A stretch of 64,000 nucleotides of DNA from Sinohyriopsis cumingii. Lineage: Eukaryota; Mollusca; Bivalvia; Unionida; Unionidae. The stretch covers positions 26,260,590 through 26,324,589 of the forward strand of contig CM068842.1 in assembly GCA_028554795.2 (NCBI GenBank), read 5' to 3'. The position numbers and the translations under genes were made by a program. The notes under the pieces are model-generated. The model ran no database searches, was not told the origin of the DNA, and saw nothing but the letters and a program-made list of their open reading frames with translations. Shown here piece by piece: positions 8,401 to 43,700 of this stretch; the first letter of the stretch is position 1, and each line of letters begins with the position of its first letter.

Positions 8401-9030
8401 AGGTCAAAAATCAGGTAATGTTCCCTAATTTACCATTTCGGTAGCTGTGATGTATAAGTAATTTAATTATTTGTTTGTCTTAATTTTTTTTATTCCATTA
8501 CATGCTATTATAAGGTAACTTTGTCTACTGGATCCGATTTTTTAAAATAGAAATTCAGTTCAGTTCTGTTTGACCTGTTTTAATAAAGAAACACTGTATC
8601 TAATGCTGACCCAGTTCCTGACCTTGATTCAGAACCAGTAAAGGTTCTGGTAAACAAGTTTTTTAAAAATATATTATTCTTTCCCAGAGTAAGAACCATT
8701 GATATCAGCTAAGGCCAAACCAGTAGTATGTGACGTTAGGCATGTAAAAAACTTATATTACAGAATATGTAAAATGGTGTTTGATGATTTTAACAGCTTA
8801 TATAACTCTTTGCTAAGAAAAGCAACCTTTCTACTATATGCATTAGTAAACTGAGATATATTGCAAATGATGTATACTGTATAAGGTAATTCATTTTAAA
8901 AACCTACCCAATTACTTGAGCAATCTGGTCATGTTCAAAAACAGCAACTAAAATCTTACACATGAAAAATCTGGAAATAGTGTCAAATTTGATGCCCTCT
9001 AAGTCTAAAAATTCTAAGGAAAGCACTGCA

Positions 9031-9270
9031 TTGGACACCTGAGGAATGATGGAAGCAGGGGAGGCCTATATTGGACACCTGAGGGATGATGGAAACAGGG
9101 GAGGCCTATATTGGAGACCTGAGGAATGATGGAAGCAGGGGAGGCCTACATTGGACACCTGAGGGATGATGGAAGCAGGGGAGGCCTACATTGGAGACCT
9201 GAGGAATGATGGAAGCAGGGGAGGCCTACATTGGACACCTGAGGGATGATGGAAGCAGGGGAGGCCTACA
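9031..9270. repeat. 40-bp minisatellite, 6 units, dimeric
   Basis: Six 40-bp units TTGGACACCTGAGG(A/G)ATG... ending GGGGAGGCCTA(C/T)A. GACACC and GAGACC versions alternate from the second unit on, making an 80-bp higher-order period. Confidence 0.95.
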
Positions 9271-9707
9271 TCATTTACATGATATCATACTGTTGAGACT
9301 GAGATAAAGACTCTTCACCACAGCTGGAAAACACTAGAAAAAAAGGCCAAAGACAGACAAAAGTTGAAGAGCTTCGTTGCTGCCCTACAAGTTAAGGAGG
9401 CCTAATGGGCAGTAAGTAAGCTAGTCTGAAACGGTGTGTCCAATAAACTGAGATTAATCGCTCATTTCAAAGAATTCAGCAGGTTGATACAGACAGGGTC
9501 CAGGCTTCACTGTAAATGTGTTTTATGTCAAACAGTCAACAGCAATTCAGTTTCAAGGTAACCAACTTCACCAAGAGCCTCCTTAAATCCTACATTCATC
9601 TTCTTAGAATCGTATATATACATTTTTTTTGAGTATCAATTAAAACCTGAAGCATTCTCTTTACATTATATTTTTTATATATCTAATGTACATATTTTTG
9701 TGGTGTG

Positions 9708-16300: not shown

Positions 16301-19300
16301 AATGACAAGACATTAGATATATATGCCTATCATGGCCTCCCTAGGTAACAAGCATAACAATTGAATAACAATATGCTCAGCAACCAGTGGATGTTGATGT
16401 TACATTGACAGCAGAGTATCTTGGTCTGCAAGCTACATGATAGGTAGTCTAATGTTACAGACAAGTAGCTGGTTGTTCATGATCACAAATTTGCATCACA
16501 TATGGGGTCAACTTTGTAAACTTGTGCAAGTAAAATGTCATTCTTCAGGGTTCTCACTAAGGTTTTAAAACTAGGAGCCCCAAACTCCTAATATAGATAC
16601 GGTTTAAGTGCCAGCTCATAATATAGGACTGATAAATATTCCAGTTAGTATTGTAATGTTCCTGACATATCATGCTCTTAAACAAAGGAAAATAATACAT
16701 AAATTCAAATTATTTAGATTATTAAAGACTGCAGAACTAACTGTTGCACCTAGGAACATGTAGTACTAAACAGGTTTGTATGATTAGTAAATTTTTAATA
16801 TTTCAGGGTATGGATAAGTTAGGGCCTTTAATTTGATTTAAAGTTCGAATTGGAGGTACCAGGATGTCTTTGCCATTCTAACATCACAAAATATAAAATA
16901 TCGTCAACTGGCAATTCTTCATCAACTAAACACAGACGAAAGTGAAGTGTTTCAAATCATCAAATTCTTTTTCAAGAGAGTGTTAATGATCAAATTTGCT
17001 TAGTAAAATTAAGTTCCCTTTGTAGGCATGCCTTTTAGTTAAACAGGGTTTTCTTCTGAACTAGACACATCAGTATTAAAGACCTTTATTTGTTGGATGT
17101 TCTTAGCTACTCGTATATCAATATATTTAGATGTATGTTAAAAGAAGAAAAGATAAAGTAGATCCAAGTCATATTAAGGAGAGAGAGAAAGTAGTAATGG
17201 ACTGAAGGATACATAGTTACATATAAAAGTGAACTTCATTATTTTGACATTACCATGACTGGAAAAAATGTCAAATTAAGCTGTAAGAATAACAAAGACA
17301 AGATTGAAACAACTAGCAAATGAGAATGATTAATGTATGGTGCAAAATGAGTGAATGCATGCAGTCTTATTGTTAAAAAAATAGAATATCAGAAGTTGTC
17401 TATTTAATTTTCAGGTAAAAGTCAAATGAAAATACAGTTTACCTAATTCTCATATTCCTTGGAGAGAGAGAGAGAGAGAGCTATACAGAACAAAGATGAG
17501 AGAGAGAGATATAGCAACAACAAATAATATAAAACTGCTGGATGCGTGGTCTAGTGTCTCCTCCCAGGAAATTGCTATGTTCTCATGTTATTAATTTGAG
17601 AAATAAATGTAACTCAATATTTATGGACAAATATAAACCATCAAAGTTAATCTTTAAATTGCTAGGTTACAATTGGGTCTGTTAAATATGACCGCCCAAG
17701 TCAGATGGCTACATGTAGTGATACCTTTGTGAAATGGAATCTGATTTTATCACATGTCAATTGTTAAATTATCAGACTTCTGCTCCTAATTAATTGTTCA
17801 CCTACCATTGCGGTTAGCTACTATGTGCCATGTTAGATGGCTTCATGTATTATGAATGACACCTGGAATATTCAAGACTCTTGAAATGATCAGGTTTTTC
17901 ATCCAGGTATGTAATCAACATAAAGATGATTTATTTTGTATATGGCTATTGCTGTCATGCAAAATATTTACACACCTTTGTTAAGAAAATTATTCAGAAG
18001 CACATATGGTGTCCTTTTTGTGGTGATTCTTGCAAAGTTTTGATGTCCAAGTCAGTGCTAAACATAAACAGAGGCAAATTATTTTAATGAAACAGAGGTA
18101 GTCAACCATACTTAATGGAAATATATGCATCATTTAAACACTGATGGACAACAAATGAATGTTTTACTGGTATTAGTGTTGACTGTCTGATATGCCATGA
18201 TGCTATCCTACTTGGGTTCTGCTTGTTACTTCACAGACTCACTCATATGTATGAAGTTGTTTACAAAAAATTGCTTGGCTGTTTACATGGAGGTCGCATT
18301 TTAGTGGCATGTAGTTTATTTCCTAATCCTGTGAATTAATGTGTCAAGTCTTTCTAGTGCATCTGAATATTTAATAAATTAGAATTCCGCTTTTAGGTCT
18401 GCCTATAATTCAGTGTGGTAGAAGCTGCATGTGTACTGTACATGGGTTGAAATCTGTGCTTATTAACATATGAGAATTTACTGTTCTCTCTGTAACTGCA
18501 GAATGTACACTGATGCATGGGAGACAACTCAAACAGGGTTAATTGTATGAACTTGAAAACAGTAATAAAGTGGATAGTTCTAAATTTCATTTAGTGTGGA
18601 AACAAACAAACAAAAGCACCATGAATAGAACATGTGACAGATTTTAAATATTCGTTGTTGTATAACAGTGCCTTCCATTTGATTTAAAGTTGGAGTTTGA
18701 GTTGCCAAAGTAGGTGAGGGGGTTTGAGGGCATCCCCAATGGTGATACTTTTTTTTAAGTAGCTGGGCATAAAGTAAAAGTAGCCAGGTAAATCAACATG
18801 GTTCCTGGCTGATAAGGAAACCTCTGCATAACTTTTGGATTATTTATATAATTTCAGGGTTATTTATATTTTTAATGTGTTTGTGTGGATATGATACAAA
18901 CATGTGTGCCAAATATTTTCATATATGTCAGTTCAGTTTTGCCCGTCACTCCTACCAGGGTATAGGCCGACCACAAAAGATCGCCAGAGGCTTCTGTCCT
19001 GTGCCATCCCCTCAAGCTGACTCCAGGTGTGACCCATCTTTTAACGATGTCCGCCTCAAGGTTGCATCGCCAAGTGTTTCTTGGTCATCCCTTCACTTGC
19101 CTTGAGGGTTCCATTTCAATGCCTGTCTGGTAATGTTGGTTGGCGGCTTACGTAGGGTGTGTCCTATCCAACCCCACCTTCTCTTCTTGATCTCGTCCTC
19201 TACCAGAAGCTGGGAGGTTCTCTGCCACAGGTTGGCGTTGCTGATGGTGTCTGGCCAGCAGATCTGGAGAATTCTTCTTAGGCAGCTGTTGATGAAGGCC

Positions 19301-22300
19301 TGAATTCTCTTTACGGTCGACTTGGTGGTTCTCCAGGTCTTGCCAGATGACATGTCTGCCAAAAACTTTCTTCACAGATCTTGCCAGATGTTTGTCTGCC
19401 AAAAACATGCCAATTTGGGAAGTATTACTGTGATTAGCTCCACGTCTCTTTCACAGAGTCAATTTGACTTACATCGGAAAGACTTGAGGATGTTCCGAAT
19501 GATTTGGGAGTTAGACAAGGGCACCTTCTGCTCTGTCACAACCCATCACAGCTTATTAATTCAGTGCTGGCTAAGGTGACATTATGGTCCCTGATACTCT
19601 ATACAATTATGAAACTCTTTTGCCTTGAGGAAGACAATTTAAAGATTAAAACATGAATTAGATAAGACGATGTTGCTGGATTGACATCTATTTTAATTCT
19701 TGCTGCATTTTTTGAAGTTTGATTATATGATGAACATTATTTTGACTGCATAAACCTGTGCAGTGAATCCGTAGGTAATACATAAGTTGAACAGAACGAT
19801 TTCCTTGCATGAGGTGATTGCTTTCATCTTTGTCACAATGCTAGTTTGGAAGCTATCTTGTAAAGACATGATTTATATGGTTGTTCCAAAATAATATATC
19901 ATCAAGTACACACTCCCATAAGTTACGATATTCAACAGTAGTTATGTATTTCTCATTTAAAGACAAATATGCATTTTGCATGAATTATGTTCGATGTTCA
20001 TAGTAGTATTGCAGTAGTCTTTTTGCTATTTATATACATTCCATTACCTTTAAATGTTGTTTATTCTAATGATTGCTCCTAACAAACTGCACAGACACAG
20101 ATCTGCCACACATTATGCGATGGCAGATCTGGGTCTGTGCAGTTTTGCAGTTGGACTTCTCTTATAAGCAAGTATATATGGTATTGTAAAGTATAGTATT
20201 AAATGCTGCCCTATAATTGAGACTTGCACCCCAATTGAAGAGCAATATGTGGTCCACCTGCCAATCTTCCAGATAGTGGTGGGTTGGGTTTTGATATTCA
20301 AAGGTTTTTGTTGTCTCAGAAGGGTATCAGTATGTAAGATCCAAATAAATAAGCAACCTTAAGAGTGGAAAGTAAATTATCTAGCAATATAAGCCTTTAG
20401 TAAATTACTGGAAATTAAAATCTGATTAAAGAAAATAGTGTGTTTTCTTTGAAGAATTTAAAACAGTTCTGAAAGAAAGTTTGTAAATGTATCATTTTCG
20501 TATTTGATCACCACTCATACGATCACAATTACAATTATATAGACATTAAATGTACAGTGGAGCCTTGTTAATCCGGACTCTGTTTATCCGGAAACCTCAC
20601 TATCCGGACATAATTCAACGGGAACAGAATTCCTAAACGTTAATTTGCTCCGTTAATCAAAATTGGGGACCAAAGTGTTAAATTACATTAAAACTTGTCT
20701 CAATAATCCGGAAATAATCTGTCCAAAAATAAGAAAATTTGAAAAATCACATGTGAAAATACAATCAGAAGAATAATACATAAAACACAGTAGTGAAGCC
20801 CTTGAGAATCTATGGCCACTATCAATAACTAAGTAGCGTGACCATATTGTAACCAGTGATTGTATAAACAATGTCTGTTTTAGCTAGTCGCTGACGGGGG
20901 TGTTAATAATTAAATAAACACACTGGGATCAAATCGTCCATGCTTTTTGACATAACATATGGTAAATAAATTAAAAGTGTCATTAAGCCTCTTTGTTGTT
21001 TACCAATTGTATGTAACAATCACAGTTTATTGTTTGCTATGCAAATACAGTTGACATTTTTAAGCTGTGGACAGTATAGGGCTTCAAAGAATCCAGGCAA
21101 ACAAAGGTTACAGACTTCTTCAGGAAATTGACATAATAAATGTATGTACAGTACATACATGTACATGAATGTAGTGTGATGTGTTCGATGTGTTAATTGT
21201 CTAAACTTCTATTTACTGTATATGTACGTACAAGCACATGTTATAATAATGTGAAATAAACACAAATTAATAGATGTATTCATTAATTTATTTCAACCAT
21301 TATTGAATATACAGTACATTACATTTAAAGCTAGCATATACATGTACACATATATGGTGTGATGATATCATAAAATAAAAAATGTGCATGATTCAATTAT
21401 CCGGAAAACTCGTTAATCCGGACATATTCGCTGGGAACGAATGTGTCCGGATTAACGAGGCTCCACTGTAATATAAATATGTTCATCATGCACAGATGCC
21501 CCACCACAATATATGAAATGACCTAAACCCAAAATGTGAACCAAAATGGCTTACAGACTAACAAGGTTAGCACTGTTTGTATCTATAGATGTCATGGTGA
21601 GGTGCTCATATATGCAAAATTTCTGTCTTTAAAATCCACTCAAATAAAAGTAGAATTTGGTTTACACCCACTTTGCATCATTTATGTTTTAACTATGAAT
21701 TTATTTTAATTATCATTATTAATTAGACAGTGGCATTAAACATTAACTTTGGGATGTAGTGCTGGCTCTTCAGTTGTTCATTAAAGGTGATACTAGCTTC
21801 ATTAGTGTTCATCTTCATACCTGTCAGAGAGATGGTACTGTTGTTCAAACTTCCCTGAAAATCTTGTGAAATTTTTCTCAGTATTGGGACTGATCATTCT
21901 GCATCTATATTGTTGAGGGAATGTCAAACATACAATGGCCACACCAGTTATCAAGTCATATCTTGGCATTTATGAAGGTAGATGACATTTTGAAATTTTG
22001 GCATCAAATAAGAACAACACCTCCATATTGTTCCCATCATTAACATTCCAGCTACTGAAATAAGTATGCTTTGCTTTTTCATGGTTACTTGTATGTATGT
22101 AAACCATCTTCAAAGAAGCTTTGCTGCTGGTCACAAAAAAAGTCAATATCTGTAATAAAGTTGGATATGATATCTGATTAAAGGCAATGAAATGTAACAT
22201 CTGTTGTTTCTTCAATATGATTTATTTAATTTTCAATGAATTGGGTTGTTCTGTTTTATGTTCTGTATGCAAGTTAGCCTAATGGACTTGTCTGATCTAA

Positions 22301-25300
22301 TTTCCAGTGAATTGGATTGTTGTACTTCTTATTCTGTATGCAGATTAAACTAATGGACACGTCTGATTTGTTTAATTTCCAATGAATTGGGTTGTTCTTT
22401 ATGAACTGTATGTAAATTAGTCTAATGGACTCTCCACAGCAGTTCTCAAAAGGACTATGTAGATTAGCCTAATGGACTCTCCACAGCAGTTCTCAAAAGG
22501 ACTCTCCACAACTGTTCTCAAAAGGACTTTCAGCACAAATCATCCTGGCTATTGTTGATCAGCTAAGTGATCTGTAGAATGGTGGTTGTTTTTAATGCAC
22601 CAGCTCTACCTTTCTGTTGTATAAATTGCCAAGGACTCGTAGTACTCAATGAGTGTTAAGCATGAAGCCATGTGAGTCATGAATATTAACTGTTTATATG
22701 GACGGGCTAAAGGTTAATGCTGTGTATCATTGTCCATAAGGTCTGTCTCTAATTAAATTTATTGGAATCATCCTTGTATCAACAGATATAATGCTGGGAC
22801 ATTTGACAGTCAGAAATCTCTCTTTAATTAATTTATTGGAAATCGTGTTTATATAAACTTGATCATGTTAATGGATAGTCCAACATTATGTTTTTCATGT
22901 GACATAGTGGATATGAGGTTGTCAGATTCCTATATTTACATGCATTATAACATATACCTTAAGATTATTTTATGCCTATCTCAGCTTGCAGTTGGCAGTG
23001 GACGTCCAGATCCCTGAGGTGTTTGGTGGTCTTCATGGGGAAGCTGTCTATATTGATACTGAGGGCAGTTTCATCACAGAGAGGCTGGTGGACATTATTG
23101 CGGCATCAGTTAGACACTGTGAACATATATCTCAGAAGGAACCCAATGAAGGTTTGATATTTAGAATCTGGTCATTTAGGTACCAAATATTGATTTTACC
23201 ATAAAAACCCATCTTTAATGTAGATTCATGGGATCGAACACATTTATCCATTTTAGAGAGGTGTCCTTTTTACAGAGGGTTAGTACTTTTATGCAACTTT
23301 ATGACTGGGTCTGTGCAGTTTACAACTGACTTGTCTGGCTCTGTGGTGCCCCTTTTTGAGTCCACTCGACCAAGGTACAATTATTTCAATGCCAGTGACA
23401 GGAATTACTCTGGAGAAACCCAACGAGAGAGGATGAAAAGAACAGATGCCTTTACATATAGTTGGGTGGGGGGGCTACTTGCTGCTAGACTTTGATATGG
23501 TCAGTGGAAAATGACGACCAAGGGAACACTTTAACATTGTAGAAATGAAACTTATCATAAACACTTTTCAGCTCTTGAAGGACTGACTCTGTAAATAAGT
23601 CAGTCCTGATTATGTCAGACAACTTGGTAATGTTGACTTGTCTCCTCAAACAGTCTGGCACCAAATTGCACAACCTATGTGTGCTGGTTTAGAAAATTTT
23701 TCATTCATGTTACTTCAGATTTACATGCATATCAAACACATTGCCAGCATACTCAATGTTCTATTCAGACAAGGTCAGGTTATTCACATGGAATGGTCAG
23801 TTCAGTTTTTGGTTTTTCATCTGATTTGTACTTTTTGGGGTTGTCAGAAGATCAACCTCTTTGAGACAAGGTAGAACCACAAGTTGCCTTGCTTTGTCTC
23901 ACTGGTCCTGGAGCCAGACGTTTGGACCGTGGATCTCTGTCAATCAGTTGGGGGGTAGTTATAGGTCTTTGCTTACACACCCCCAATCTTTGTACTGAAA
24001 TTAATGCAGAAAATGTGAGGTCTTAATTGTAAGATAATTCTAATACCCCTCTCAGACAGGACAAGACCATGGTGAATGATTTACTGGAACTAGTGAATAA
24101 ACTACCCAGAAAGAATAAGCCCAAACCAAATTTTAAAAAAACCATGGTTGCAAGTGTCTTATGCCTGCCCAGTCAATCTCCTTCATCCTTGACTCTTGTC
24201 GGGACAGCCTTGCGATACCAAAAATTCAGACCTTCAGTTGTGGAGAGAATCTTGAGAGCAAAAAGGCCTCCATTCTGAAGGCTTATGAGCAAATATGGGG
24301 CGTTTTCAGGGATTTGTATGGCGTTGATACCATTGTCCCTTTGAGTGCCTTGATCCCTCAACTGGCCAACGTTTTACTCTGGCTCCACAAGGAGAAAAGG
24401 CTGGTACCAGTTACCATCAAAGACTACCGCTCCATGATGTCTGAGACACTCAGGCACCTAGGCAAGGATCATGATAAAGGTCTATCAGACCTACTTGCCG
24501 ATATATGATTAATCATAAACAGGTTTTTAGTTGCTTCTGTGAAACATAGCTTGAAAAGAAGGAGCACAGAGATTGGCTTTGAAAAAGTGACAATCGTGCT
24601 AACACAGCATATTGCTTTCTGTGTAAAAAGCACATTGATATTTCAGCGAGTCTGCATTGACCAACATAATACATACCTCGTTTGTAAAGGATTTGTCACT
24701 ATAAAACTATCAATATTTATACAAATGTGCAGTATGTGTGTGTGTGTGTGTGTGATTTGGATTTTTAATATAGCTTTAACAATTTTTCAGTCATACCACT
24801 ATGATGTCTGCAGTGTGGCAGTTTACAGTGATGTCTAGCACTTGAGCATCATGCCGCAGGCATGTAGCATGATGTCCCACCCAGTCACATTATCCTGACA
24901 CCAGGCCGACCTGTCCTAACACTAACCTCTTAATGCTGAGTGCCATGCGAGGCATCTGTTAGTACCATTTTTGTAAGTCTTTGGTATGACTCAGCCAGGG
25001 ATTGGACTTATGACCTCCTCCATCCGAGGCGGATGCTCTAACCACTAGGCCACCAGCAAATGTGGAGTAGACCAACCTTTACCTTATTTGAATAGTATTC
25101 CCTCACTATAGAGTCATTCATCGGGGCCATAAAAGTGCACTGTCTTAATAGGTGAAGTCATCTTGAATATATTTTTATACTTGATATTACTATTAACAAT
25201 ACCCAACTTTTAAAACGGACCACCTTAAATTGAGGTATATTGTAGTGTGGCAGTATATGTTTAAAACATTCGTCTGCAAACATTAAAGACCCATGTCTGT

Positions 25301-28300
25301 TATGACATAATGCACCATCAGATGAAGGTCTATGTTGCTTGCTTGAAATCATTAGCAGTACAGATACCATACACTGTAATCTACAGACACCATACACTGT
25401 AATCTACAGACACCATTCACTGTAATCTACAGACACCACACACTGTAATCTATCATCTCATAATGTGACAGCTTGGTTCCTTTTTTGACAGTTAGGTATT
25501 CACACACACACACACACACACACATACAAACACAGAGAGATTCTATTTTTAATACTTTGTACACTACTTTAATAAATTCTCAAGTTCCAATTGGCTGACA
25601 GCATCAAGGATATTTTTTATTCCTTGGTTAATATTGGATATATATCATCATGTGATACAAGAAAACATCATATTGTAACAACTGGTAAAGCCATGTGTTA
25701 AGAAATATAACATTTTTGTTGAACAAGATGCAATATATCTAGTATTTAAAAAGGAAAAGAATAAAATTTAATATTGTATACAAAACTTTCTCCTAAATCG
25801 AAGCTGAGAAGATTAAACTTGTTCTTTAACCCCATTTAGTATAGTTTAAATGAGTTTTCCATTGGCTGATTGTAAAAAGATCAGTAATTTAATGAGGCCA
25901 GTAGGTTTATGAGGATCTAATCTATCGCAGTAAAGTATCCGTTTTTTGACATTTTCTTAACTATTTTACTATACCCGACAACAAAGCATGTCCAGTCAAG
26001 CAATGCAGCACACCAGGTTTTTAACATTCTTAATGAGGTAGTACAGGGGACATGACTTTGTATAGAAGTAAACAACTCTTCAGCAAAAATATAAATTCCT
26101 TTGCCTGAAAGGCAATGCAGTTTTCACTTTTTACTATAGCTTGCAAAGTGATCTTTTTATTTCTTGCTGCAAGCATATAACTTCTATAGGTCAAACATCA
26201 CATGGCATGATAGAAAATCTTGTATTTTCAAATATTGCACATTAAAGTACATAATAAAGGAATCTAATTTTGGATTGTATGCATTTCCACTTAACTCTGG
26301 GATGCTATAACCTGAATGCAGGAATTATACCTGCTCCAGTAGGTGCTATTGCATTATATGATGTCACATTTGTCATGTGATATACTAAATCTACTATTGC
26401 TTTCTCCCATTGGAACTGTTCTACATCAACTTGGGCACCATATCCTACCAAACAACAATTGAGAACAGTTCTCTTAGGAGAAGGTAGCAATATAATTGTT
26501 GAAAGAAAGGTGCCAATAGATTTGTAGACTGTCCAATGTATAGTGTATTTATGGGGCAGCCTATTTGTATTTGGGCATCTGATAATATTGATGGTATTTT
26601 CACTGTTGCATAGAAGTTTTATGAGCAACATATTCTTGGAACTCTACAATTGGTATTTGCGAAAATGACGGTAAAAACATAACATCTTTCATTTATCAAT
26701 TACATGATTGTTATGTCCTTTCAAACACACCTTTACCGCTCCAGTGGTCTAGTGGTTAGAGCATCTGCCTCAGATGCAGGAGGTCATGGGTTCGAACCCC
26801 AGTTGAGTCATACCAAAGACTTTTAAAAATGGTACGAACAGTTGCCTTGCTAGATGCTCAGCATTAAGAGGTTAGTGTTAGGACTGGTCGGACTGGTGTC
26901 AGGATAATATGACTGGGTGGGACATCATGCTACATGTCTGCAGCATGATGACTGACCAAGTGCTGACACCATTGCGATATGCCTGAAAAATTGTTAAAGC
27001 TTTGTTAAAAATCCAAATCACACAAACATACAAACACACGTTAAGAAAATTAGCTCAGAAATTTTTCAAAATGATTTTTTTTTGAGGCTACCATAATAAG
27101 CGTCATAATGTTGCTATAAAATCGATATTCTAGACAGTTGATTTTCTGCTGAAAAATTTGATTTTCAGTTAATTCAATAGTGTCTTGGATCTTAAATTAA
27201 TTCAATAGTGTATTGCATTGGAGACGTGTTATATTTGACATTAACTGTTGCAGAGTTGATGGAGCATCTGAAGAGTTTGACAGTGCAGCACCTGTTGACA
27301 GGTATCCACTACCATAGGTGTCATGATTATGTACAACTACTGGCCATTGTCCACCTTTTGCCTACCTTTCTTAAGAATCATCCTAAGGTATGTGGGAAGA
27401 TAACCTTAACACTTAATACAATTTATCCCATAATAATTTTATATGACCAGCCTATTAATTTTTTAGAAAAGGGTGGAGGGAACTTATTATCAGATATAGC
27501 TATCATAGCTGCCAAAGTGTCCTGCTTTTCTGGTATTTGTCCCATAGTTTGGATCTGATTACGGGTGTACACTTTTCATGTTAAAATCCATAAAATAAAA
27601 AAAATTGAATTAAAAAATTCCTTGCAATTTTCTGTTTAGAATGGGCACCCAGTTCCATTCTGAGAGTAAAAGTATCACATATATATAGGGATATAGAGAC
27701 CTAAAATATGATTGGTTCATTTGAAATTGAGGTTACCATGCCAGTCTTTAACCACCATATTGGAATGCGTAAACAGTTGCTGTTATCACCATATCTCATC
27801 TTCGTAATATTCAGCTTTGTGAAACCATTTAGTAAAGGAGAAAATTTAGTGTTTTGCAAATTTTATAATTGTGAATTTGCAATTAAACATCAGCTTGCTG
27901 CATCATCATCAACAACACAGGCTGAACTTCAACATTTATAAATACCAAAGAGAACCTTGATGTAATTCGATCAGAAGTTCATTTTACTAAATTTCTTTTA
28001 AAAATGAACCTTCTTCTTTCAGTTGCTGGTGTTTGTTGCTGGTGATTTATTTTACTCACTTTTTCCAGACAGTAAAATCACAAAAAATCACTTGTGTGCT
28101 AGAATGAAAACAGTTTAGTAAAAAAACAAAAATAGCAAAGAATTCAGATCATCAATGAAAGATGGTACATTGGAGCCGATAATGATTGAAACGACAAGGC
28201 GTGGAAAAGGCTCCCATAAATAGCCTGTGCCTGAGCATGAGTTTATTGCAGTCTTGCACCTTCTGAATGGGAAATGGTGCCTGTTCAGAATGTGCTAGAG

Positions 28301-31300
28301 CAGGGGTCGGCAACCTTTTGATAATAGTGTGCCAAAGTAGGATTTCTAATTCCTTCAGTGTGCCAACAACCTATATTCCTATAAGTCTACCTGCTCTACC
28401 ATATTTTTATATATTATATAAGTACTTGTATATATGAAACTACTATTAAAACAAATAAATTTGATCTTGAATTTATTATATTAATGTTTAATTAAAGAAA
28501 TTGAAAATAAAAACTTCAATTGAATGTAATTAATCTGTATCTCAATTAATGTGAGCCTTGTCCTTGCACACTCTTGGTTAATTGTTCAATATGAGGTACA
28601 TATTTGGTCACTTTCAGCTTCACACAGGCTTCTGAGTGTTCAGGTGTTAGGCGACTTCTTTGTGGACTTAAAACAGCTTTCATGTGAGAGAAAATCTTTT
28701 CACAAGTATAAATTGAACCAAATACTGAAAGTAGAGCAAATGCAACTTTCTTCAAACAGATGAATGCTTCAGGGAGGGATGTCCAGCAGTTGAGAATAGC
28801 AACTGATTTTTCTAAGCAGTTTCCTTCCAGAGATTTCTGCAATTCGGCAAATTTTGATGTCCATAATTCTGATGTCTTAAATTCAACATGCTGCATTTCA
28901 AAATCGTCAATACCCATCCACCTAAAAAGATCCAGATCTGATTGGGTAGTAGTCAGATCAAGCAAGTCAGGCTTGATGAGGTATGAAAATATGGGTTCAT
29001 GAATTTGAAAGTCTTGACTTCGTTTAGCAAACTCCACTTCGAGTGCTTCAATGTACTTCTGAAGCTCATCTATATTCACTGTAAATCGATCTGAATGAGT
29101 CTTCACATTTGGGAAGTACTTGAATGTTTTGGATTTGTTATCATGGCAAAATATGTCCAGTTTCAACGCAAATCCTTTCCAGTAGCCAAAAAGTTCAAGT
29201 ACTGTTTGACCCTGTCCTTGTAAATGCAAGTTCAACTCATTTAAATGTGTCGTTATGTCTGTCAGAAACATCAGCTTCAACAGCCAGTCCTCATCATTCA
29301 ATTCCGGAAAATGTTGTTCTTTTTCATCAAGAAACACCTTAATTGCTTCCAGACAAGAAACGAATCTATTCAAGACTTTACCTCGACTAAGCCAGCGAAC
29401 ATTGCTGTTCAACAGGAGATCTGCATATTCACTCTCAATTTCTTGTAGAAGAGACTTGAATTGCCTGTGAATCAATGAAGAGCGGGAAACTATAAAGTTG
29501 ACTATTTTAACAACAGTTGCCATCACAGAATGCAAGTCCAATGATGAGATATTTGCACACAAACTCTTCTGGTGTATAATGCAATGGAAGTTTAATAGTC
29601 GACGTCCAACGTGATTCTCAAGAAGTGTGACAAATCCTTTCTTTTTGCCAACCATTGCAGCAGCACCATCAGTTGTTACACAGAATAATTTATTCAACTC
29701 GATGTTCTGATTTTTTAAATAGCTTACAAATGCAGTCAGAATGTCCTCTGCTTTGGTTGTATCATGAAGAGCTAACAAGCAACACAGCTCTTCATAAATA
29801 CGATTATTTTCACAATATCGTATGACTACAGCTAGGCGTGACAAGTCATTCAAGTCAACGCTTTCATCAAAAGCGACACTAAATACAATAGCTTGATTTA
29901 ATCCAGTCATTTGTTTAACTGTTAAATTTTCAGCAAAATCAGTTATGCGCCTCTCAATTGATCTTGCAGAAGCTGGTAGTTCTTGAATCCAAGACAGTAT
30001 AGTTTCTTTATTTGGTAAATCACTGAACAGAATTTCAGCACTGCTCAAAAAAGTTTCTTTGATGTACTCTCCATCTGTAAAAGGTTTGCCTTTTAAAGCC
30101 ACACACTGAGCAATTGTGTAACTACATTCAGTAGCTTTATTCTTCATTCCAACTGCTTGACTCAAAATACCAGTTTCTTTCTTGAAACCAGAAATAGCCC
30201 TTTTGATGGCTTCACTTTTCTCTTCAGAGGTTTCAGACTTGGTTTGATGTTTGGTTTCATAGTGTCTTTGTACACTAGACGTATGACACACAACACTTTC
30301 ACAACAGAAAGCACAAACAGCACGATCCTTTGGTTGTATAAATCCATATTCTTTTGTCCAATTTTCTTGAAATGGGCGTTGATCAAGTTTTTGCCTTTTT
30401 TCAGCCATTTTATGGGTACTGTATTTTAATACAAGAACATAAGAAATAGCAATAAAACTATAAACATTTAACACGTTGGCCGCGTCCCTCAGTAGCGGCA
30501 GCATGCAGTGATTGGTGATCCACACTAATATATCCTGCTGCTGGCCAGTGAAAGTGGACATGTGGCGACACCTAGCTAAGACAAGAAATATTAAGAAAAT
30601 GATATGGCGCCATCCAGTGCACGCAGCAGCCATTATGCTGACGTACATTGTTTGGACTTGCATTGAAAAAAATCTTTTTTTTCCACTTATTACCTTTTTG
30701 GGGGGTCTTCTGCGTGCCACTGAAAATCGCTCTGCGTGCCATAGGTTGACGACCTCTGTGCTAGAGTGCAACATATGCCTCTTGGACATTAAATAAATAA
30801 GTTATTGTCCTACTTTATTGATTTTTGTAGATGTTGTAAATAGTTACATATGTATTAAAATTTTAAAAATCAGTGTTTGTTCCTGAAAATTAGTAATTTT
30901 GTCATAAGCAGTAAGTATTTTTGTACTACTCTGGGGTTGGCAGCTATGACCTTAACGCTTAATACAATACATCCCATAATAACTCAATGTGATCAACCTA
31001 AATAAAAAAAAAATTGGGGCGGAGGGCTTATTATCAGCTATGAGCTATATGTATTAAATATCCTTTGTAAATAATTGTCAAACTTTCTACCAAACAATAT
31101 TGTATATGATTAGCCTCTTTTTTAGATTAAGTTTGATAAATATGTTAATATCATTAGGATGCTGGATGATGAGCCTTGTTGGTTGTTATGGTTTGACGAC
31201 ATTTTTCAGCACACAATAGGCTATACATGGCAGCCAGTATAACTGGTGGAGGAAGAACCTGGGAAAAGCCCAGGAGGAACCACAGACCCACATGAAGCTA

Positions 31301-34300
31301 CTGGAAAGTTTTCCCACATACCCAAATTGACCAAGTCCAAGATTCTGACAAATTCATTAGGATATATTTGAGATATCAACAATATGTAATCGGGGCCCGT
31401 GGTGAGCCTGTGATGTATGATCATGTCTATGGTTTATTGTAACACAGCCATTTCATTACTGTTTGAAATAGATAGCTTAAATTCAAAAGGGTGAGGCTAG
31501 ATCAGTGCAAAAATGTGATAAAAATATTACAGTCTTGTAAAAATAGAAGCTTGAATTTAACATGATGAGGCTAGGTCAGTGCAAGAATGTAATAAAAATA
31601 TTATTGTCTTGTAAAAATAGAAGCTTAAATTCAAAAGGATGAGGCTGGGTCAATGCAATAATGTAATAAAAAATATTACAGTCATGTAAAAATAAAAGCT
31701 TAAATTAAGAATGACGAGGCCGAGTCAGTGCAAGAATGTAATAAAAATATTACTGTCTTGTAAAGATAGATGGCTTAAATTCAAAAGGACAAGGCTGGGT
31801 TGATGCAAGAATGTAATACAAAATATTACAGTCTTGTGAAAATAAATGGCTTCAGTTAAAAAGGACAAGGCAGGGTCAATGCAAGAATGTTGTTTTGTGG
31901 TCTAGCACTGTTTCTTAGTGCAAGATAGGTTATATATGGTGGCCAGTATAACTGGTGGAGGAAGAAGCTAGGAAAACTCTAGTGAGAACCACCAATCTGC
32001 AGGAAGCTACTGGAAAGCTTTCTCACAAATCCAGATTGACTGAGCCAAAAACTCAAACCAGATGATGGCTGAGATGTCAAAGATTGGTAAAGGTGAGCAC
32101 TTTAAACTACTCATCCACCCATGGCCCCAGTTCAAGAATGTAAAAAAATATATTAGTCTTGCAGGGATGGTCCTGGCTTTTAAAAAGCTGTCGCCAAAAA
32201 AATCGCCAACCTCAATATTTTGTCGCCAATTTTCAAAAAGTGTCGCCAGAACAAGTAGTGTACATTTTTCCAAGTGTTAATTTAGTCTATTAATGTAACA
32301 GGCAATGAAAATTACAAAAGATGGGTTACTTAATTCTTTAATTACAACAAGCATTAACAAAATGTTACAAAGGGTTACATGAAGATCCGTCGCAATTTTA
32401 GGGCTGCCCACTTGTTGAATGCAGTTTCAAAGTCTAATTTTTCACATCTGTACATGCTGATTCTCATGAAATTCTCGAGAGATGAGATGCAGAGTTTATT
32501 TCTGATGTCAGTTTTTATGAGGTTCATCTTACTGAATCCACGTTCACAGTCCACAGCACTGACAGGTGACACCAGTAGTCTATCAGCAGCCCCCCCCCCC
32601 ATGGCTAGCTTAACAAAGCTTGTAGTGAATTGCTTCCTAAATCCCAAGAATGATCACTGAATGCTGTATAAATTTTCTCGACAAACAAAATAGGATCTAC
32701 ATTCCCACGAATGAAACTTACACGAATCAACACCTGGCAATATTGGACCGTATATATAAGCATAAATTCACACCCAATTTAGAGATTCTTTCACTCTTGT
32801 ATTTTGAGAAATAAATAATTATTATTAATTATGCAAAACTGGTTGTTGTTTTTGTTTTGTGCTATTTCTTGTTTCGGAGTTTAAGTCTCAGCAGCCATAA
32901 CACGGATTGATGGCAAAAGGAAAAGATCAATGAGTAAAATGCTGCACTGGCGACAGACATAATTGTGATTGAGATTTTTCCATTTGCTTTATATTTATAC
33001 ACAGTAGTCGGTACTTCAAAGGTTATCAGTTTTCTATGAAGGTTCAGCAAAACTATTGTACTGGTATATGTAAAAAAAAAAAAAAAAAAACCAACAGAAG
33101 ATTTAGCCATTCAATTAATTGTATCTGTTCTATTCGCGTCTTCAGAAGTCGGTCAGTTGTAGGTATAGTTCGGTAGCATGATTGACTGTATCACAGCATA
33201 CTCAGCCCAGATGGCAGCATAAGCAGATTATGATGTAACAATGCACTGTAAAGATGGGGTTGTCAATATGAACAAAGGATTGTTTGTGTAACAGACTGAT
33301 TCCAATGCATTGCTTAGTCAAGTTTGTGGCTTCCTTTCGTTCTCCCTTTTAATTTATCCAGTCCAAATCTATGATTGTATGTACAAATTAAATAACCAAA
33401 AAGTCTGTCGCCAAAAAAATCGCCAGATGGGATATTTTTGTCGCCAATAAGGAAAAAAAATCGCAATTTGCGACATTGGCGAAGCCCAGGACGATCCCTG
33501 GTCTTGTAAAAATTTATAGTTTAAATTCAAAAGAAGAAGGCTGGGTTAGTGAAGGATGTAATTTAAAACTTATTATAATCTTTTAAAATTAGAAGCTTAA
33601 ATTCAAAAGGTCAAGGCTTGGTCAGTGCAAGAATATAATAAGAAATACTAGTCTTGTAAATAAATAGATGGCTTCAGTTCAAAAGGACATGGATAGGTCA
33701 GTGCAAGAATGTAAAAAACTATTACAGTATTGTATAAATAGATGCCTACAATGTTGCAGTTGTAAAGGCTTTTAAGCTGACTGCTGGTTCCTAATAAGAA
33801 GAATATGTACAAATATTAATTTTTTGTGTCATTTATGATTTTCTTTCACACAAATTACGGGGGAGGGGAATACAATGATTAAGTATGTGACTTGAACTGG
33901 TGCTGTATTTATTTTGTAAAATATCCTTCATTATCAGTGTTTGTAATGGACTGGAACTGAACTTTTTCATGGTGCCATTGATGTTTATAAAAGATTGATT
34001 CTCAAACTCTTATTTCAAATACAGTGTCAAATTGTAGTGCTGAAACAAATACCTTATTTTACTATGTGAATATTCCTAGCCTGTAATCAATTTGTATGTG
34101 AATATTCCTAGCCTGTGATCAATTTGTATGTGAATATTCCTAGCCTATAATCAATTTGTATGTGAATATTCCTAGCCTCTCACCAGTGCTAGATAACACT
34201 ATAAACTGCAGACATAATTTTTCTCCGTTTTAAAGTGGAATTCCGCTTTTCTCCTGACATGAATTTAATTTTTCTTGATGTAGTCCATTTTTTATATCAT

Positions 34301-37300
34301 CTCCGATCCGGTTTTGTAAAAACGGTCTGTCCGTTCCCATTGCAACTACCCAAATTATTCGTTCCATATATTAGTTAGCACACAACTCTCATAAAGAGTA
34401 TTCTGATTGGTCAGAGGTTTAAATTCATCCAGTGAATCTTCGTGTAGTGGAAACTGATGGCTATGGAAAGAAGATGCATGCTTGCAAAACATGGTGTCCC
34501 GAGTTGTTGAGAGAGATCATGACACGAAAAATTTTGATAAAGGTTTAAAAAACATATGGAAATGGGAATGGCTTGAGCGAAAGTTGATGGAAATTTAGTA
34601 TGTCAGTTTATATGAAAACTGAACACTAGAGGACTGGCCGTGATTACCCTAATGCAGATCTTTCTTGAAGATTTTGTGACCTCTGCAAGAAAGATCTGCA
34701 TTACGGTAATAATAGTTGGAAGAGTTTTAAACAGCACCTACAAAAGAAGCTGCATATGGAAAAAATTTAAGTTCAGAAGGCATCTGTAAAAAGTGCAGTT
34801 AATTACTATAAGAAGAAAGATTTCTTGCATAGAGAACAGATATAGCCCTCTGTCAGAATATGCGCACTGCATGTTGCAAATACAAGCACCAGCTTGAAAG
34901 AATAAAGGTTCTCATTGAGATAGATAAGAAACGATTGCACATTGAGCCAAAAATGTTAGTGGTGACAAAAAGGAAGGTTAAAGAAATCTTTACCAAAGCC
35001 ACAAAAAGAGCTCGACTGGCATATCAACAGGTTGTGTCCATCGGAGAAAAAGACAAGTGAATGTATGGGATTATTTGTATATAGTTGATGTACTTGGTTG
35101 TTTATTTTACAGATTTGTTATGAAAAGAGAGAAGTGTAATATATTTGCTGCAAAAATTGACAAATTCTTGTGACTTAATTACGATGTGAACACTGACATG
35201 CACATGAAATAACTTCAGCATCAATAGTATTGGAGAACAAATTCATGTGACTATAAATGTTGTGAAATTATTGAAAGTCAAGTTGAACATTTTTGGTAAG
35301 TTTATTAGTTTTTTCAATTGATTTTTTTGGTTTATTTTATGATGATAAGTTGCACCAGGACTAGTTTTTTATGAGTGTAAAATGCGTTTTTGGCAGTGGG
35401 CCCTCAACCCCTGGATCGAGGGCACTGCCCCTCGAGACCCCTTTGGTGAAGGACCCCCAAATCCACCTTAAATTTTTTTCAGTTTTTTTTTATGGAAGAC
35501 CAAAATCATATATGAAACTGCCTCACTGCAGACATAGCATTATTTTGAAAAATTGTTAAAGCTATGTTAAAAATGTAAATCACATGCACACACTGATTTA
35601 AGAACATACACATTTGTTTAACTTAAATTTATATATCTCTATAATGCTTAATAACCAGCAAATATAAGGACACTCATCTGAAAAGTTGGTTCTTTACAGA
35701 ATTTTTGTTGTAATTTACAAATGACAGCTGATCACAAATTGAATTAAGCACATTTCAAGGTTGAGAAGATTCATGCAGACTGGACCTGATTCAATGAACT
35801 TTTAAAATTCAGGTATGTTTATCCATTACAGTCTTGATTGCTCAGAATTTGGATTTTTAATGTAGCTTTAATAATTTTTCAGTCATATCGCTACAATCTC
35901 TGCAGTGTGACAGTTTAAAGTAATGTCTAGCACTGGGGTATCATGCCACAGACATGTAGCATGATGTCCCACCCAGTCACATTATCCTGACACCAGGCTG
36001 ACCAGTTCTAACACTAACCTCTTAATTCTGAATGCCAAGCGAGGTAGCTGTTAGTACCATTTTTGTACGTCTTTGATATGACTCTGCCGGGTAACAAACC
36101 CACGACCTCCGGCATTTGAGGTGGACGGTCTAACCACTAGGCCACTGGAGCGGTCTCAGAATTTGTGTTAATAATGTAATTAAAAAATAAATAAACAATG
36201 TGAATGCAATTTTACAATTTTGCTAGTCTTCATGCTAATTCTAAAAGAAAAATTTATAATGAACAAAAGTATAACTCAGACTGGATACAGCATTTATTTC
36301 TCAAAACCAAGTTTTAAAAAAATTGAACTTTAACTTATTTTCATAAAGAAGTATTTTGGAAAACAAAACCATCACAATAAATGTTTCTAAAACCAAAGTT
36401 TCTTTAAACTGTAAAAGTTTCAAACAATTAATGAAATTCTGATTTCATCCCAAGATGTTAGGTCTTGCAATGACCGTAATGTGTCAGTGGCAGCTATCAC
36501 TGCTATTGATTTACAGAGTTTTCATTGTTTCTTTCTTCTCTTTCCTGAGAACACAATTTATAATATTCCCACACATTGCTGCATAACTTGTCCATGGCTG
36601 TTGTCAGACTGCCAGCTTCATAAAACTTCAACTGGTACACATATATATTGGTCACAAAGTGAAACTACATATCGCAGGGGTCATCTCAAAGTTGATAAAC
36701 TCTCAAGGTGCATTAAAAGTGGACCTGTTCTAATGTAAATGATACAACAAATATTGAAATACCAATTTTTTGAATTGAATATTCACCAAAAAGTATTTTT
36801 TGGGAACATTCCTTTAACTTAGTAAAGTGTTGGACTCTTAACAACTTCTCCTCATTTAAGTGAAATGTTATTTGTGCAGGATGCGATTGACATACATTGG
36901 TCCTACTTTCTGATATCAGAGTTGATTTTATGTTTTCCAGAACTGATGATTCTGCATGTCTGCCTAGATATGTATTACCACTGCATGTCTGCCTAGATAT
37001 GTATTACCACTGCATGTCTGCCTAGACATGTATTACCACTGCATGTCTGCCTAGACATGTATTACCACTGCATGTCTGCCTAGACATGTATTACCACTGC
37101 ATGTCTGCCTAGACATGTATTACCACTGCATGTCTGCCTAGATATGTATTACCACTGCATGTCTGCCTAGATATGTATTACCACTGCATGTCTGCCTAGA
37201 TATGTATTACCATTTCACATTAAGTTTTTGGATATTATGCTTTGTTCAGCAGACCTTTTTAGTCTGACTATTTAGGATGTTCATGTAACATCAGGGGTCA

Positions 37301-37751: not shown

Positions 37752-40700
37752 ATACTTTCTAAAAGTTCACAATTATGGCACTTTTAAAAAAAGGTTTCTA
37801 AACTCGTTTGAAATAACCTCTGTACCATGTACATGAGGGCAAATGCATGTGTCTTTAGATCCTACTGTTCGTTCTAATTTCTTTGTTGTGAGTAAAACAT
37901 TACTGTAACTATTCATACATAACACTAAAATGCATAAAATTACAAATGCTGTTCTGTTATAGTCGCTATGTGAACAAAACCCTTTCCAACCAAATCAACA
38001 TAGACTTGTGAGTGCATCTATTTTTAGGAGGGATTTTTATAATGTAACCACTCACTTCATTACAACAGTCCATTGATAGGATCGCAAACTTATGGTTTAT
38101 TTATTTGTCTACATACTTTTAGTAATTTTAGGCAATGATTAAATAGTATCTGCTTCACTGCTTTTTTGCATATTTTAAAAAATACGAGTTGGGTCAGAAA
38201 AAAACTTCTTGCGAATTCCACAAAATAGCATTGTCCCATACGTTTCTTACCAACATAATTGCATTTTAAAGTTAAAGCTTATATAAGATAATACCTAGGC
38301 TTTGCTTTCTATGAATTGTATTTTTTATGAATATATTTACCCATTGATTTAGGAAACAGACAATCTAATAAACTGGTATTTTTATTCCAGACACAGCGAT
38401 GTCCGCCATTATTTTTCTGTTATTGGTTCACTTATCGTTTCAAACTAATTTTATGGCAAAATAGTGTACAAGAGGCAGTTAAAATATCTAGATCATCAAT
38501 TGTTTTTAAAACAAATTGCTATTTACATACTATTGTTAAAGTTTCGAAACACAAGTTTGTATGTTTTTATCATCAAAGGATAACATGCAGAAATTGGGCA
38601 GTGATATTTTCTAACTTACTTTGGAAAGGATTAATAATCAATCAGCTATCAAAACACAAGCCTGTGAAAGTGCAAGAGGTTGTCAGTGTAAATGATATCA
38701 AAACTAGGCCTAACTACTGATGGCATTTCACTACAACACAACACTAGAAATAACCTGGCTAAGGTGAGGGGGGCATCTAAAAATGTATGGTCAGTCAATG
38801 TACCTCTAAAAATAATCACAGGGCGAAGTCGTTTTCACTTTCCTAACAGATGAAGGCGAAATTTATATTTTTTTAATCTACTTAGTCGCCCACTTCACCT
38901 GGTACTGTGACCTCTGTAACACACACCTTTTTTAATATTAGTGAAATCACAGATCAATGTAAACCAGTATATAAAAGAAAAAATTTTCTTATCCAGGTAA
39001 AATTAGTTATAATTGACAGCCTGACAGCCCCCTTCTACCATGATTTTGAAGATTTTTCCTTGCGAACCAGAATTCTCACATCTGTGGCACAGAGTCTGGT
39101 CAAAATGGCAGTTGAATTCAAGATCAGTGTGAGTTCTTTTACTTGCTGTTCAGATATTTTTTTGCTTAGAATAGATTTTGATGTACTACTGATGTAAAAA
39201 AATATTTTAAAAATATACCTTGCATATAGTATCAACTTTATACGAAAATCTCACTATTCCTACAGTTAACTCCAGATATAATAGAGCCAAGCAACCCAAT
39301 AAATAATTTTATATCAGTAATATATCAAGTTTCGCTATTGTCTATCTTGCTTTTCTGGGATGGATTTACCCTTATTTGTATAATAAAATTTCACTCTCAT
39401 AAATGATCTGGAAAGTTTTAGACAAGAAGAACACAGACCCAGTCTATTCCCCATGTGCAGTAGTCATCATATTTTTTTAGGACTGCCATTTATATAGGTT
39501 CAGTTCAGAAAGGTCTTCAGAAATTGTGCCTTCACTCATATCCACCATGCAAATATGGTTTCTTACATTCCTAGAGCTCTTTTGAGAGTTTCTAGGCATT
39601 TGTTATTTCATTATCAGCAGTGCCCTTCTAACATTACTCTTTTCCTTAATGGTCAGGTATTCCATATTGTTCATTTGTTATATTTGTTATTATTCCAAAC
39701 TCTTTGATAGTAAGTAATGTCTTCCAATCATTGTCAAAAGTTACTGTGACCCCTATTTACTCTTTTGTAATTAGTGAATATCTGGTTTTATAATCCACTG
39801 ATTAATGTTTCATGTTGATCTTAGAATCATGAAAGTGGGTCACACACCAGCATTATATTTTGTTTGCATGTTCAGATGGTTACACATCATTCTTTTTCTA
39901 ATATATTGAGTTGGGATATGCACTCCACTACTTTTAACATTGTTATTATATTACATTTGACTGATTCCACTACTTTTATCGTTATTATATTACATTTGAC
40001 TGATTTCACTACTTTTATCATTGTTATTATATTACATTTGACTGATTCCACTACTTTTATCATTGTTATTGTATTACATTTGACTGATTTCACTACTTTT
40101 ATCATTGTTATTATATTACAATTGACTGATTCCACTACTTTTATCATTGTTATTGTATTACATTTGACTGATTTCACTACTTTTATCATTGTTATTATAT
40201 TACAATTGACTGATTCCACTACTTTTATCATTGTTATTGTATTACATTTGACTGATTCCACTACTTTTATCATTGTTATTATATTACATTTGACTGATTC
40301 CACTACTTTTATCATTGTTATTATATTACATTTGACTGATTCCACTACTTTTATCATTGTTATTATATTACATTTGACTGATTTCACTACATTCATTGTC
40401 ATCAGTACTCAGCATTCAAAGCATTCTTGGTGTTTCTCTTTCATTAATACCTTATGAGGTAGGTCAAGTTTTATACTGCATTGACTTTTAGGTCTTGGTC
40501 AATTTAAAACCATTATAATCATTATTTTTTACTGTTCTTTGTTTTCTGAGATTTCTTTTGCAGCAGTATGTCACAGAGTGAGAGGAAATGTGAAAATAAA
40601 AAGGCCCCATGAGATACACACCCAGCCTGCCCTGTAAAAATTGCATACGGACCATATGGGATTCAATTTCTTCAAAGACATATATGGGATATTGATCCCT

Positions 40701-43700
40701 GATGGTTATTTCAACCCCGTCAGAGCCTTTTAGGGTCAGGTCTAGGTAATTCCCCGGGCTGAAAATTACAGTGCAGAGAGCAAGTTGTGCCACTCTGACC
40801 ACACTCCCACCTCCATGATAAAGGAGCTGCACCTCTCCAAGCCCAGAAATGAGAGTTGCACCAGTTGTGATTGACAAGCAGCACCCTCTCAGAGCCCATA
40901 GCTTGCTGATGGCAACAAGGCAAATCAAGCACCCTGGTAGGGGAGAGCTCGAATCTAGTCACCTGACCAGTCACCATCAGTGGTGGGTCACTTGTCAGTG
41001 TTCACTGGGCACCAGTCTGCAAGTGCCAGTCACCTGTCATTTGAAACTGTTTGGTTCAGGGATTGGATTGAGACTTTCCCTTTCTCCAGGGTACCAGTTA
41101 ATCCAGTTGGGGACTGTTGGAAGTTGGCATACATGTGCCAGACTAGGAAAGGGGATCAGCTCGGCACCCCTTCCCCCTTTTCTATAGATCCACATAATCC
41201 CTATGGCAGACATGATTTTTATCTGTTTAAAGTGGAATTCCACTTTTCTCCTGACATGAAAAAGACTTTTCTTGATATAGTCTGTTTTTTATATCATCTC
41301 CAACCTGGTTTTAAAACGATCTGTCTGGTTCCATTCCGCAACAACCCTTGTAAATTATTTCCATATATTAATTAGCACACGACTCTCGTAAAGAGTATTC
41401 TGATTGGTCAAAGGTTTAAATTCATCCAGTGAATCTTTGTGTAATGGAAACTGATGGCAATGAAAAGAAGAAGAATGCTTGCAAAACATGGTGTCCCGAG
41501 TTGTTGAGAGAGACCATGACACTGAAAGTTTACATAAAGGTTTAAAAAACATGGAAATAGGAATGGTTGGAGCAAAAAGTTGATGGAAATTTTGTTGGTC
41601 AGTTTATAAGAAAACTGAACGCTAGAGGACTGGCATTTTGTGACTTCTGCAAGAAAGATCTGAATTACGGTAATCGCGGTTGGAAGAGTTTGGAAAAGCA
41701 CCTACAAAAGAAGCTGCATATGGAAAAATTGAGCTCAGAAGGCATCTGTAAAAAGTGCAGTTAATTACTATAAGAAGAAAGATTTCTTGCATAGAGAACA
41801 GATGTAGCCCTCTGTCAGAATATGCGCACTGCAAGTCGCCAATACAAGCACCAGCTTGAAAGGATAAAGGCTCTCATTGTGAAGGAAATGAAACAGTTGC
41901 ACATTGAGCCAAAAAAGTCAGTGGTATCAAAAAGGAAGGCTAAAGAAATTTTTGCCAATGTTGCAAAAAGAGCCCAACCGGCATATCAACAGGTTGTGTC
42001 CATTGGAGAAAAAGACAAGTAAATGTATGGGATTATTTATATATAGTTGATGTACTTGGGTGTTTATTTTACAGATTTGTTATGAAAAGAGAAGTATAAT
42101 ATATTTACTGCAAAAATTGACAAATTCTTGTGACCTAATTATGATGTGAACACTAACATGCACATGAAATAACTTCAGCATCAATAGCATTGGAGAAAAA
42201 ATTCATGTGACAATAAATAGTGAAATTATTGAAGTTAAGTTGAACATTTTTGGTAGTTTATTAGTTTTTCAAATGATTGTTTTGGTTTATTTTATGATCA
42301 GCAGGAGCAGTTTTTTTATGGGTGTAAATGCATTTTTGGCCGGGTTGAAGGCACTGCCCCTCGAGACCCCATTGGGAGAGGACTGCCAAACGTCCCCCCC
42401 CCCCTAAAATGTTTTCAGCTTTTTTTTATGGAAGATCAAAATCATGTCTGCTATGGGTTATGGGAACATCCATTCCAAGGAAATGAATGGTCCTCCACAT
42501 TTACGCAGATATGGACTCCATACACTTTACATTGTAGCATCATCTGCTTATAAAGTAGAGTCAAGAAGAAAGAAGGTAGGCTGTGAGTATGGTCAAGAAA
42601 CTTTCCACTGTATAAGAGAGACATGCGGTTGTCTCCCTAGAGTGAAAGTATGATGTCAGTTTTAATTGACTTGAATGGGGTCGAGGCAGTACAGGCCAAG
42701 ATATTGCTTTCTCTGGTCCACTGCTTCCTCCTGACCACCAACTCAGGTGGTTAAGGAAAATAAGATTTGATCTTTTGACAAGGCAGTAAATGAAGCTTAT
42801 GATCTTTTACCCTAAGAGTTGTGTCCTGATCTCTCAGGCTCAGAGGATAGAAAATTAGTTCAGAGAGACCCTCAGGGTCTACCTTATGAACAGATCTCCT
42901 TTCAATCCCAACATGTTCATGGTCAGGTAGCTTTCTCCACATTTTGCAAGGGCCAGGGGTTTGCTAGGCAGTATAAGGTGTGGTCAGTTCATTCTACACT
43001 GTAACCTCTGGTCTTTGTGGCTAGTTATAGGGTAAACTCCCCTGCCTGCCTGCCTGCCAATCTTATCTTGGAGGGTGTTAAACAACCAGTCTCTGGTGTT
43101 CTACCACAAGATTTTCCTGGTATCCAAATAGGCAGAAAATTTGTACTGTCAACTTTTCCACCTTAAACAGGTTTTTTAAGGAGGAACATCTCACAGCTTC
43201 AGTCATGAATGTCACAAGACCTGGCAACTGGGCAGTCTCCATCAATCTCTAGCAATGTGTTGCTTCACATCTGTTTTTTTCTCCTCAAAGGAAGCACCTT
43301 TGGGTTTTGCCTGGACTGGGAGGTTTTCCGATTTTCACTGACATTAGGCCTAGCGTCCATATTTCACTGTCTGGGGCCTTGCCTCCATATCTATAGTTTT
43401 TATCAGAAAAACGGGAGTTGTTGCCACCCACTGTGGATCCCTTTCCTACAGTGTTTTGATGACTTGTTGATCTATAATTGCTCTTAGACTCACTCAAACA
43501 TATCTGTTTTGCTGCTAGTCCATATTGACCCTGCTGGGCCTTTCATGCAACCAAGAAATTAGAGGTAGTTGCATCTCACAATTTCATATCCATGAGGATG
43601 AATTTCTTCACATACAGGGCTAAAGTACATGTCCCATGGGACACAGTAGACAGAATCAGTGGTCCTGTTGAAGGTGCTGAGACCCAGGACTTTTTGTTGG

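Follow-up and report, generated by a model that had tools for sequence, protein, structure and literature searches.

hAT transposases have an RNase H-like fold with an insertion domain. The Buster family of hAT elements (Buster1, Buster2, TcBuster, SPIN and Mar) is described as sharing an 8-bp target site duplication with a central TA, subterminal repeats and a hAT-type transposase, all of which have counterparts at the locus reported here. The consensus of the Buster duplication is given as nnnTAnnn (PMC3517528, PMC3499496), PMC4298943 reports that Buster elements carry short subterminal repeats, and TcBuster, which comes from a beetle, is described as active (PMC3499496). For Hermes, the target pattern is given as nTnnnnAn, and its short subterminal repeats are described as being bound by the zinc-finger BED domains of the transposase (PMC10368747). 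The hAT-6_XT and GTF2IRD2-like (Charlie8-like) hATs of vertebrates are said to be often misannotated as GTF2IRD2-like genes (PMC11008031, PMC10641963), and PMC11008031 describes recent hATs with the same features as ours, some of which reached turtles, fishes and a frog by horizontal transfer. Among molluscs, hAT elements are reported in all of the genomes analysed in PMC10294476.

Here we describe a hAT element in DNA of the freshwater mussel Sinohyriopsis cumingii. The element occupies positions 28301-30758 (2458 bp) of the window, by which we mean the whole 64,000-nucleotide stretch that was analysed, and it is flanked by an 8-bp direct duplication. We consider it highly probable that this is a complete hAT transposon, apparently an autonomous one and most likely a member of the Buster group, that inserted fairly recently, and in antisense orientation, into an intron of RAD51C. 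It is an ordinary, apparently new member of a well-known group of cut-and-paste transposons. Family membership, copy number and age are all judged here from one sequence.

Anatomy of the element

The two copies of the target site duplication, at 28293-28300 and 30759-30766, both read TGCTAGAG and match perfectly, with the pattern nnnTAnnn. Immediately inside them lie the terminal inverted repeats (TIRs), which read inward are CAGGGGTCGGCAACCT on the left (28301-28316, plus strand) and CAGAGGTCGTCAACCT on the right (30743-30758, minus strand); these repeats are imperfect, being identical at 14 of 16 positions. An earlier note on this DNA had given the coordinates, a perfect 8-bp duplication and terminal repeats, and each of these details proved exact.

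Close to the TIRs, the hexamer GTGCCA occurs twice at the left end (28329-28365, with starts at 28329 and 28360) and twice at the right end (30714-30741, with starts at 30714 and 30736), always on the plus strand. Four occurrences compare with 0.28 expected from base composition; all four share a single orientation and fall within about 65 bp of one end of the element or the other, and the hexamer is found nowhere else in the element. By analogy with Hermes, these hexamers are candidate binding repeats for the transposase. If the element works as known hATs do, its transposase would attach to the terminal and subterminal repeats through its finger and catalytic core and would excise the element with its DDE residues; insertion into an 8-bp target with a central TA would then leave the duplication behind.

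Within the window, blastn found no second copy of the element (non-self matches had E of at least 0.011 and spanned at most 52 bp), and the joined flanks, with 600 bp taken from each side, had no match across the junction that would mark an empty site in the window (E ≤ 1e-3). A TIR-like 16-mer at 18093, with two mismatches, was considered as a second hAT end and rejected as a chance resemblance because a scan downstream as far as position 22000, in one orientation, showed no partner that shared 6 or more of the 8 duplication bases and 9 or more of the 16 TIR bases.

The transposase

The minus strand of the element carries an unbroken frame from 30408 down to 28546 (28546-30408) that encodes 620 amino acids followed by a stop, just as the earlier note had it. 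The element contains a run of 736 codons without a stop, whereas no stop-free run in 500 mononucleotide shuffles was longer than 165 codons; the frame is therefore not a product of chance. Elsewhere in the window, stop-free frames reach at most 210 aa, in a tandem repeat, followed by one of 192 aa that includes a RAD51C exon.

Where does this frame begin? Measured from stop to stop it is 751 codons long and extends past the right TIR into flanking DNA. The leader between the ATG and the right TIR (30409-30742, minus strand; 334 nt, or 350 nt with the TIR) is stop-free and in frame with the transposase, and the open frame upstream of the ATG as a whole spans 30409-30801 (minus strand), through the right TIR and into host DNA. 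A leader open in the transposase frame arose in 6 of 4000 dinucleotide shuffles, and one open in any of the three frames in 25 of 4000, so that the open leader could be chance or could be an N-terminal extension. We have kept the ATG at 30408 because the 131 residues upstream of it have no Pfam match at E ≤ 0.1 and because the frame runs on into host DNA. With A at -3 and G at +4, this ATG stands in a favourable start context. At the other end of the gene, a polyadenylation-like AATAAA lies at 28472-28477 on the minus strand, some 70 nt beyond the stop codon of the transposase; seven further AATAAA or ATTAAA hexamers occur on the same strand within the element.

The protein contains the hAT dimerisation domain Dimer_Tnp_hAT (PF05699), which Pfam places at residues 524-596 with 33.8 bits against a cut-off of 21.4 (E = 2.9e-8). 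The catalytic-triad residues D181, D247 and E570, which the earlier note had named, are all present as assigned by motif, as are C276-x2-H279 (the CxxH motif) and R338-W339 (the RW motif). Near the N-terminus, C32, C35, H49 and H54 are the likely zinc ligands of a CCHH finger. These DDE, RW, CxxH and finger positions were set by the hAT family motifs, not by an alignment to Hermes. In the arrangement of its other domains and in the spacing of its catalytic residues, the protein presumably resembles Hermes. The earlier note had called the finger a BED finger, and this description holds in part: the CCHH residues are there, but the Pfam zf-BED model does not match, and the sole finger match is to the Spin-doc zinc finger (PF18658, residues 14-69), at 20.3 bits under a cut-off of 27.3. 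The N-terminus as a whole, we presume, resembles that of the GTF2IRD2-like group of hATs.

The remaining comparisons of the protein yielded less. A DUF4371 match at residues 172-256 is under the Pfam cut-off, and matches to PAS_6, GcvP2_C and MIS13, all weak, unrelated and below cut-off, were read as chance. No sequence relative of the transposase was found in the PDB at E ≤ 1, and a single-sequence AlphaFold model has a mean pLDDT of 39.8, too poor for fold comparison. The whole transposase gave 15 pattern matches in genome_contigs and 0 in viral_contigs, and a 108-aa core gave 144 and 12, with no relatives among them in either case; this absence says little, because the two collections consist of prokaryote and virus DNA.

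Relationship to Buster, Hermes and GTF2IRD2-like elements

Membership of the hAT superfamily follows from the 8-bp duplication, the short TIRs, the dimerisation domain and the DDE and RW residues, all of which are present. Within the superfamily, the duplicated sequence, TGC-TA-GAG, agrees with the nnnTAnnn of Buster elements, though this is one site, and a central TA is expected by chance in about 1 in 9 cases by our own arithmetic for 8-bp sites of local base composition. The same TGCTAGAG misses the nTnnnnAn of Hermes and the Ac group, since its second base is G. The ends tell a similar story: the published Buster2 end is CAGGGGTGGCCAACCT (PMC4298943), to which, by eye, the left TIR matches at 14 of 16 positions and the right TIR at 13 of 16, and the inverted repeats of Buster1, Buster2 and Mar are described as beginning with CAG, as do those of our element. 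Additionally, the length given for Buster1_SM from Schmidtea, 2,463 bp (PMC4298943), is near the 2458 bp found here. The subterminal motif differs, being GTGCCA in our element where the same source gives TGGGTCGCG for Buster1 and TGCGGCTC for Buster2. Judging by a single target site and a single pair of TIRs, we infer that the element likely belongs to the Buster group.

Two other groups offer partial likenesses. Hermes, a member of the Ac family, has an N-terminal zinc-binding BED domain and a similar length, 612 aa, and its zinc ligands are given as CCHC, in contrast to the apparent CCHH of our transposase (PMC10368747). The hAT-6_XT/GTF2IRD2-like (Charlie8-like) elements share the DDE and RW residues, TIRs and 8-bp duplications (PMC11008031, PMC10641963); they are described from turtles, other reptiles, fishes and frogs in these sources, in contrast to the invertebrate host here, and the likeness to them is one of description only.

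The host gene

With human RAD51C as query, tblastn gave seven matches with E ≤ 2.6e-6 that follow one another in order along the plus strand from 13191 to 44676. Identity to the human protein is 37-58% over the six matches of at least 38 residues. Independently of that query, the four best PDB hits of the joined exon peptides are all RAD51C chains, the best of them being 8gj8_A (353.6 bits), which we take to be an annelid protein; 8faz_C, presumably the human RAD51C chain, scored 315.1 bits. The modest identity to the human protein, this order of hits and the SINE-like family described below all suggest an invertebrate host, perhaps a mollusc. The ordered matches and the PDB hits together bear out the placement of the insertion within a RAD51C intron that had been proposed earlier. 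The exon match upstream of the insertion lies at 27262-27390 on the plus strand and corresponds to human residues 191-236, and the next matched exon downstream lies at 38997-39131, also on the plus strand (its start is approximate, and the match itself begins at 38928). The element thus sits about 0.9 kb past the exon match that ends at 27390 and about 8 kb ahead of the next one, with its transposase antisense to RAD51C. RAD51C is a gene of DNA repair and recombination, and any effect of the intronic insertion on it would be hypothetical.

Age and activity of the insertion

The 1860 bases of the transposase frame contain no stop and no frameshift, which places neutral divergence since insertion below 0.9-4.1% at the 5% level; the limit varies with the mutation bias and with the rate of indels (0 to 0.15 per substitution), and it assumes no selection on the frame. 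The CpG content points weakly the same way. The observed/expected ratio is 0.468 for the element; in 284 overlapping control stretches of equal length, taken from outside the element, it averages 0.251 (sd 0.11), and 17 of these 284 reach the value of the element, which is therefore above average and not extreme. The ratio also varies along the element, from 0.747 over the rightmost 350 nt through 0.406 over the frame to 0.241 at the left end. Taken together, the unbroken frame, the perfect duplication and the somewhat raised CpG content suggest that the insertion is likely young. The earlier impression of youth thus has indirect support, with the qualification that the CpG excess is modest and is lacking in the left end.

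Is the copy still active? The anatomy that supports the description of the element as apparently intact, namely the ends, the duplication, the open frame, the motifs and the domain, is also compatible with a recent intronic insertion that is already dead, either because the family has been silenced or because the transposase carries inactivating missense changes. We regard the chances of this as evenly balanced; it rivals our reading on activity alone. In favour of a dead copy, an intact frame in one sequence is no proof of activity, and decay is evident in the other dispersed repeats that were compared within the window; against it, all of the motifs that were checked are present and the frame shows neither a stop nor a frameshift.

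A second alternative, that the frame belongs to a domesticated transposase gene and owes its intactness to purifying selection by the host and not to youth, seems to us very improbable. The frame is indeed unbroken, and the human Buster genes are described as domesticated Buster-type transposases (PMC3499496), but the element retains both TIRs and a perfect duplication, whereas domesticated Buster genes are described in PMC3517528 as having lost theirs. An old insertion whose frame has stayed intact by luck is just as improbable: the modest CpG excess, missing from the left end, would suit it, and beyond this nothing here dates the insertion apart from the frame and the 8-bp duplication, yet at 5% neutral divergence the probability of an unbroken frame is at most 0.025 in all 12 settings and below 0.001 in the nine that count indels.

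If our preferred reading of a complete and fairly recent hAT is extended to present-day mobility, the element would add one more natural active animal hAT, and hence a tool for transgenesis, and it would serve as a marker of a recent transposon invasion. A bolder version, in which a Buster-type hAT is currently mobile in an invertebrate lineage, possibly after recent horizontal transfer, and the transposase works as isolated, strikes us as unlikely; if true, the transposase could serve for gene delivery, as TcBuster does. On a more practical level, the element is the kind of sequence that, in vertebrates, may be wrongly called a GTF2IRD2-like gene by annotation pipelines (PMC10641963).

Other repeats in the window

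The earlier note had described the other transposons in the window as decayed, and this is broadly right. Dispersed repeat pairs of at least 100 bp, with tandem arrays excluded, are about 70-86% identical as read from the list of pairs. Among the repeats is a SINE-like family of four copies, 76-86% alike, at 1478-1807, 24735-25055, 26735-27039 (minus strand) and 35847-36154. The only other trace of a hAT found in the window is a 92-aa fragment at 32378-32653 (minus strand) that resembles the C-terminus of a different, decayed transposase; its match to Dimer_Tnp_hAT, with E = 0.044, is below the Pfam cut-off.

Several smaller features were also seen. One of the SINE-like copies contains a tRNA-Leu-like stretch at 26738-26810, recognized by both Rfam and ARAGORN. 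Two short frames on the minus strand, 3290-3676 and 19096-19371, look to us like pieces of a LINE reverse transcriptase, a resemblance that we assume from their appearance, and neither has a Pfam match at E ≤ 0.1. A dispersed repeat pair of 1.3 kb, at 34208-35509 and 41206-42445, is 84% identical. Finally, tandem arrays lie at 9026-9271, 36952-37212, 39924-40402, 48049-48222 and 58922-59555, and the offsets between matching copies put their units at about 29-42 bp; the copies are about 90-100% alike in the first four arrays and about 76-86% alike in the array at 58922-59555.
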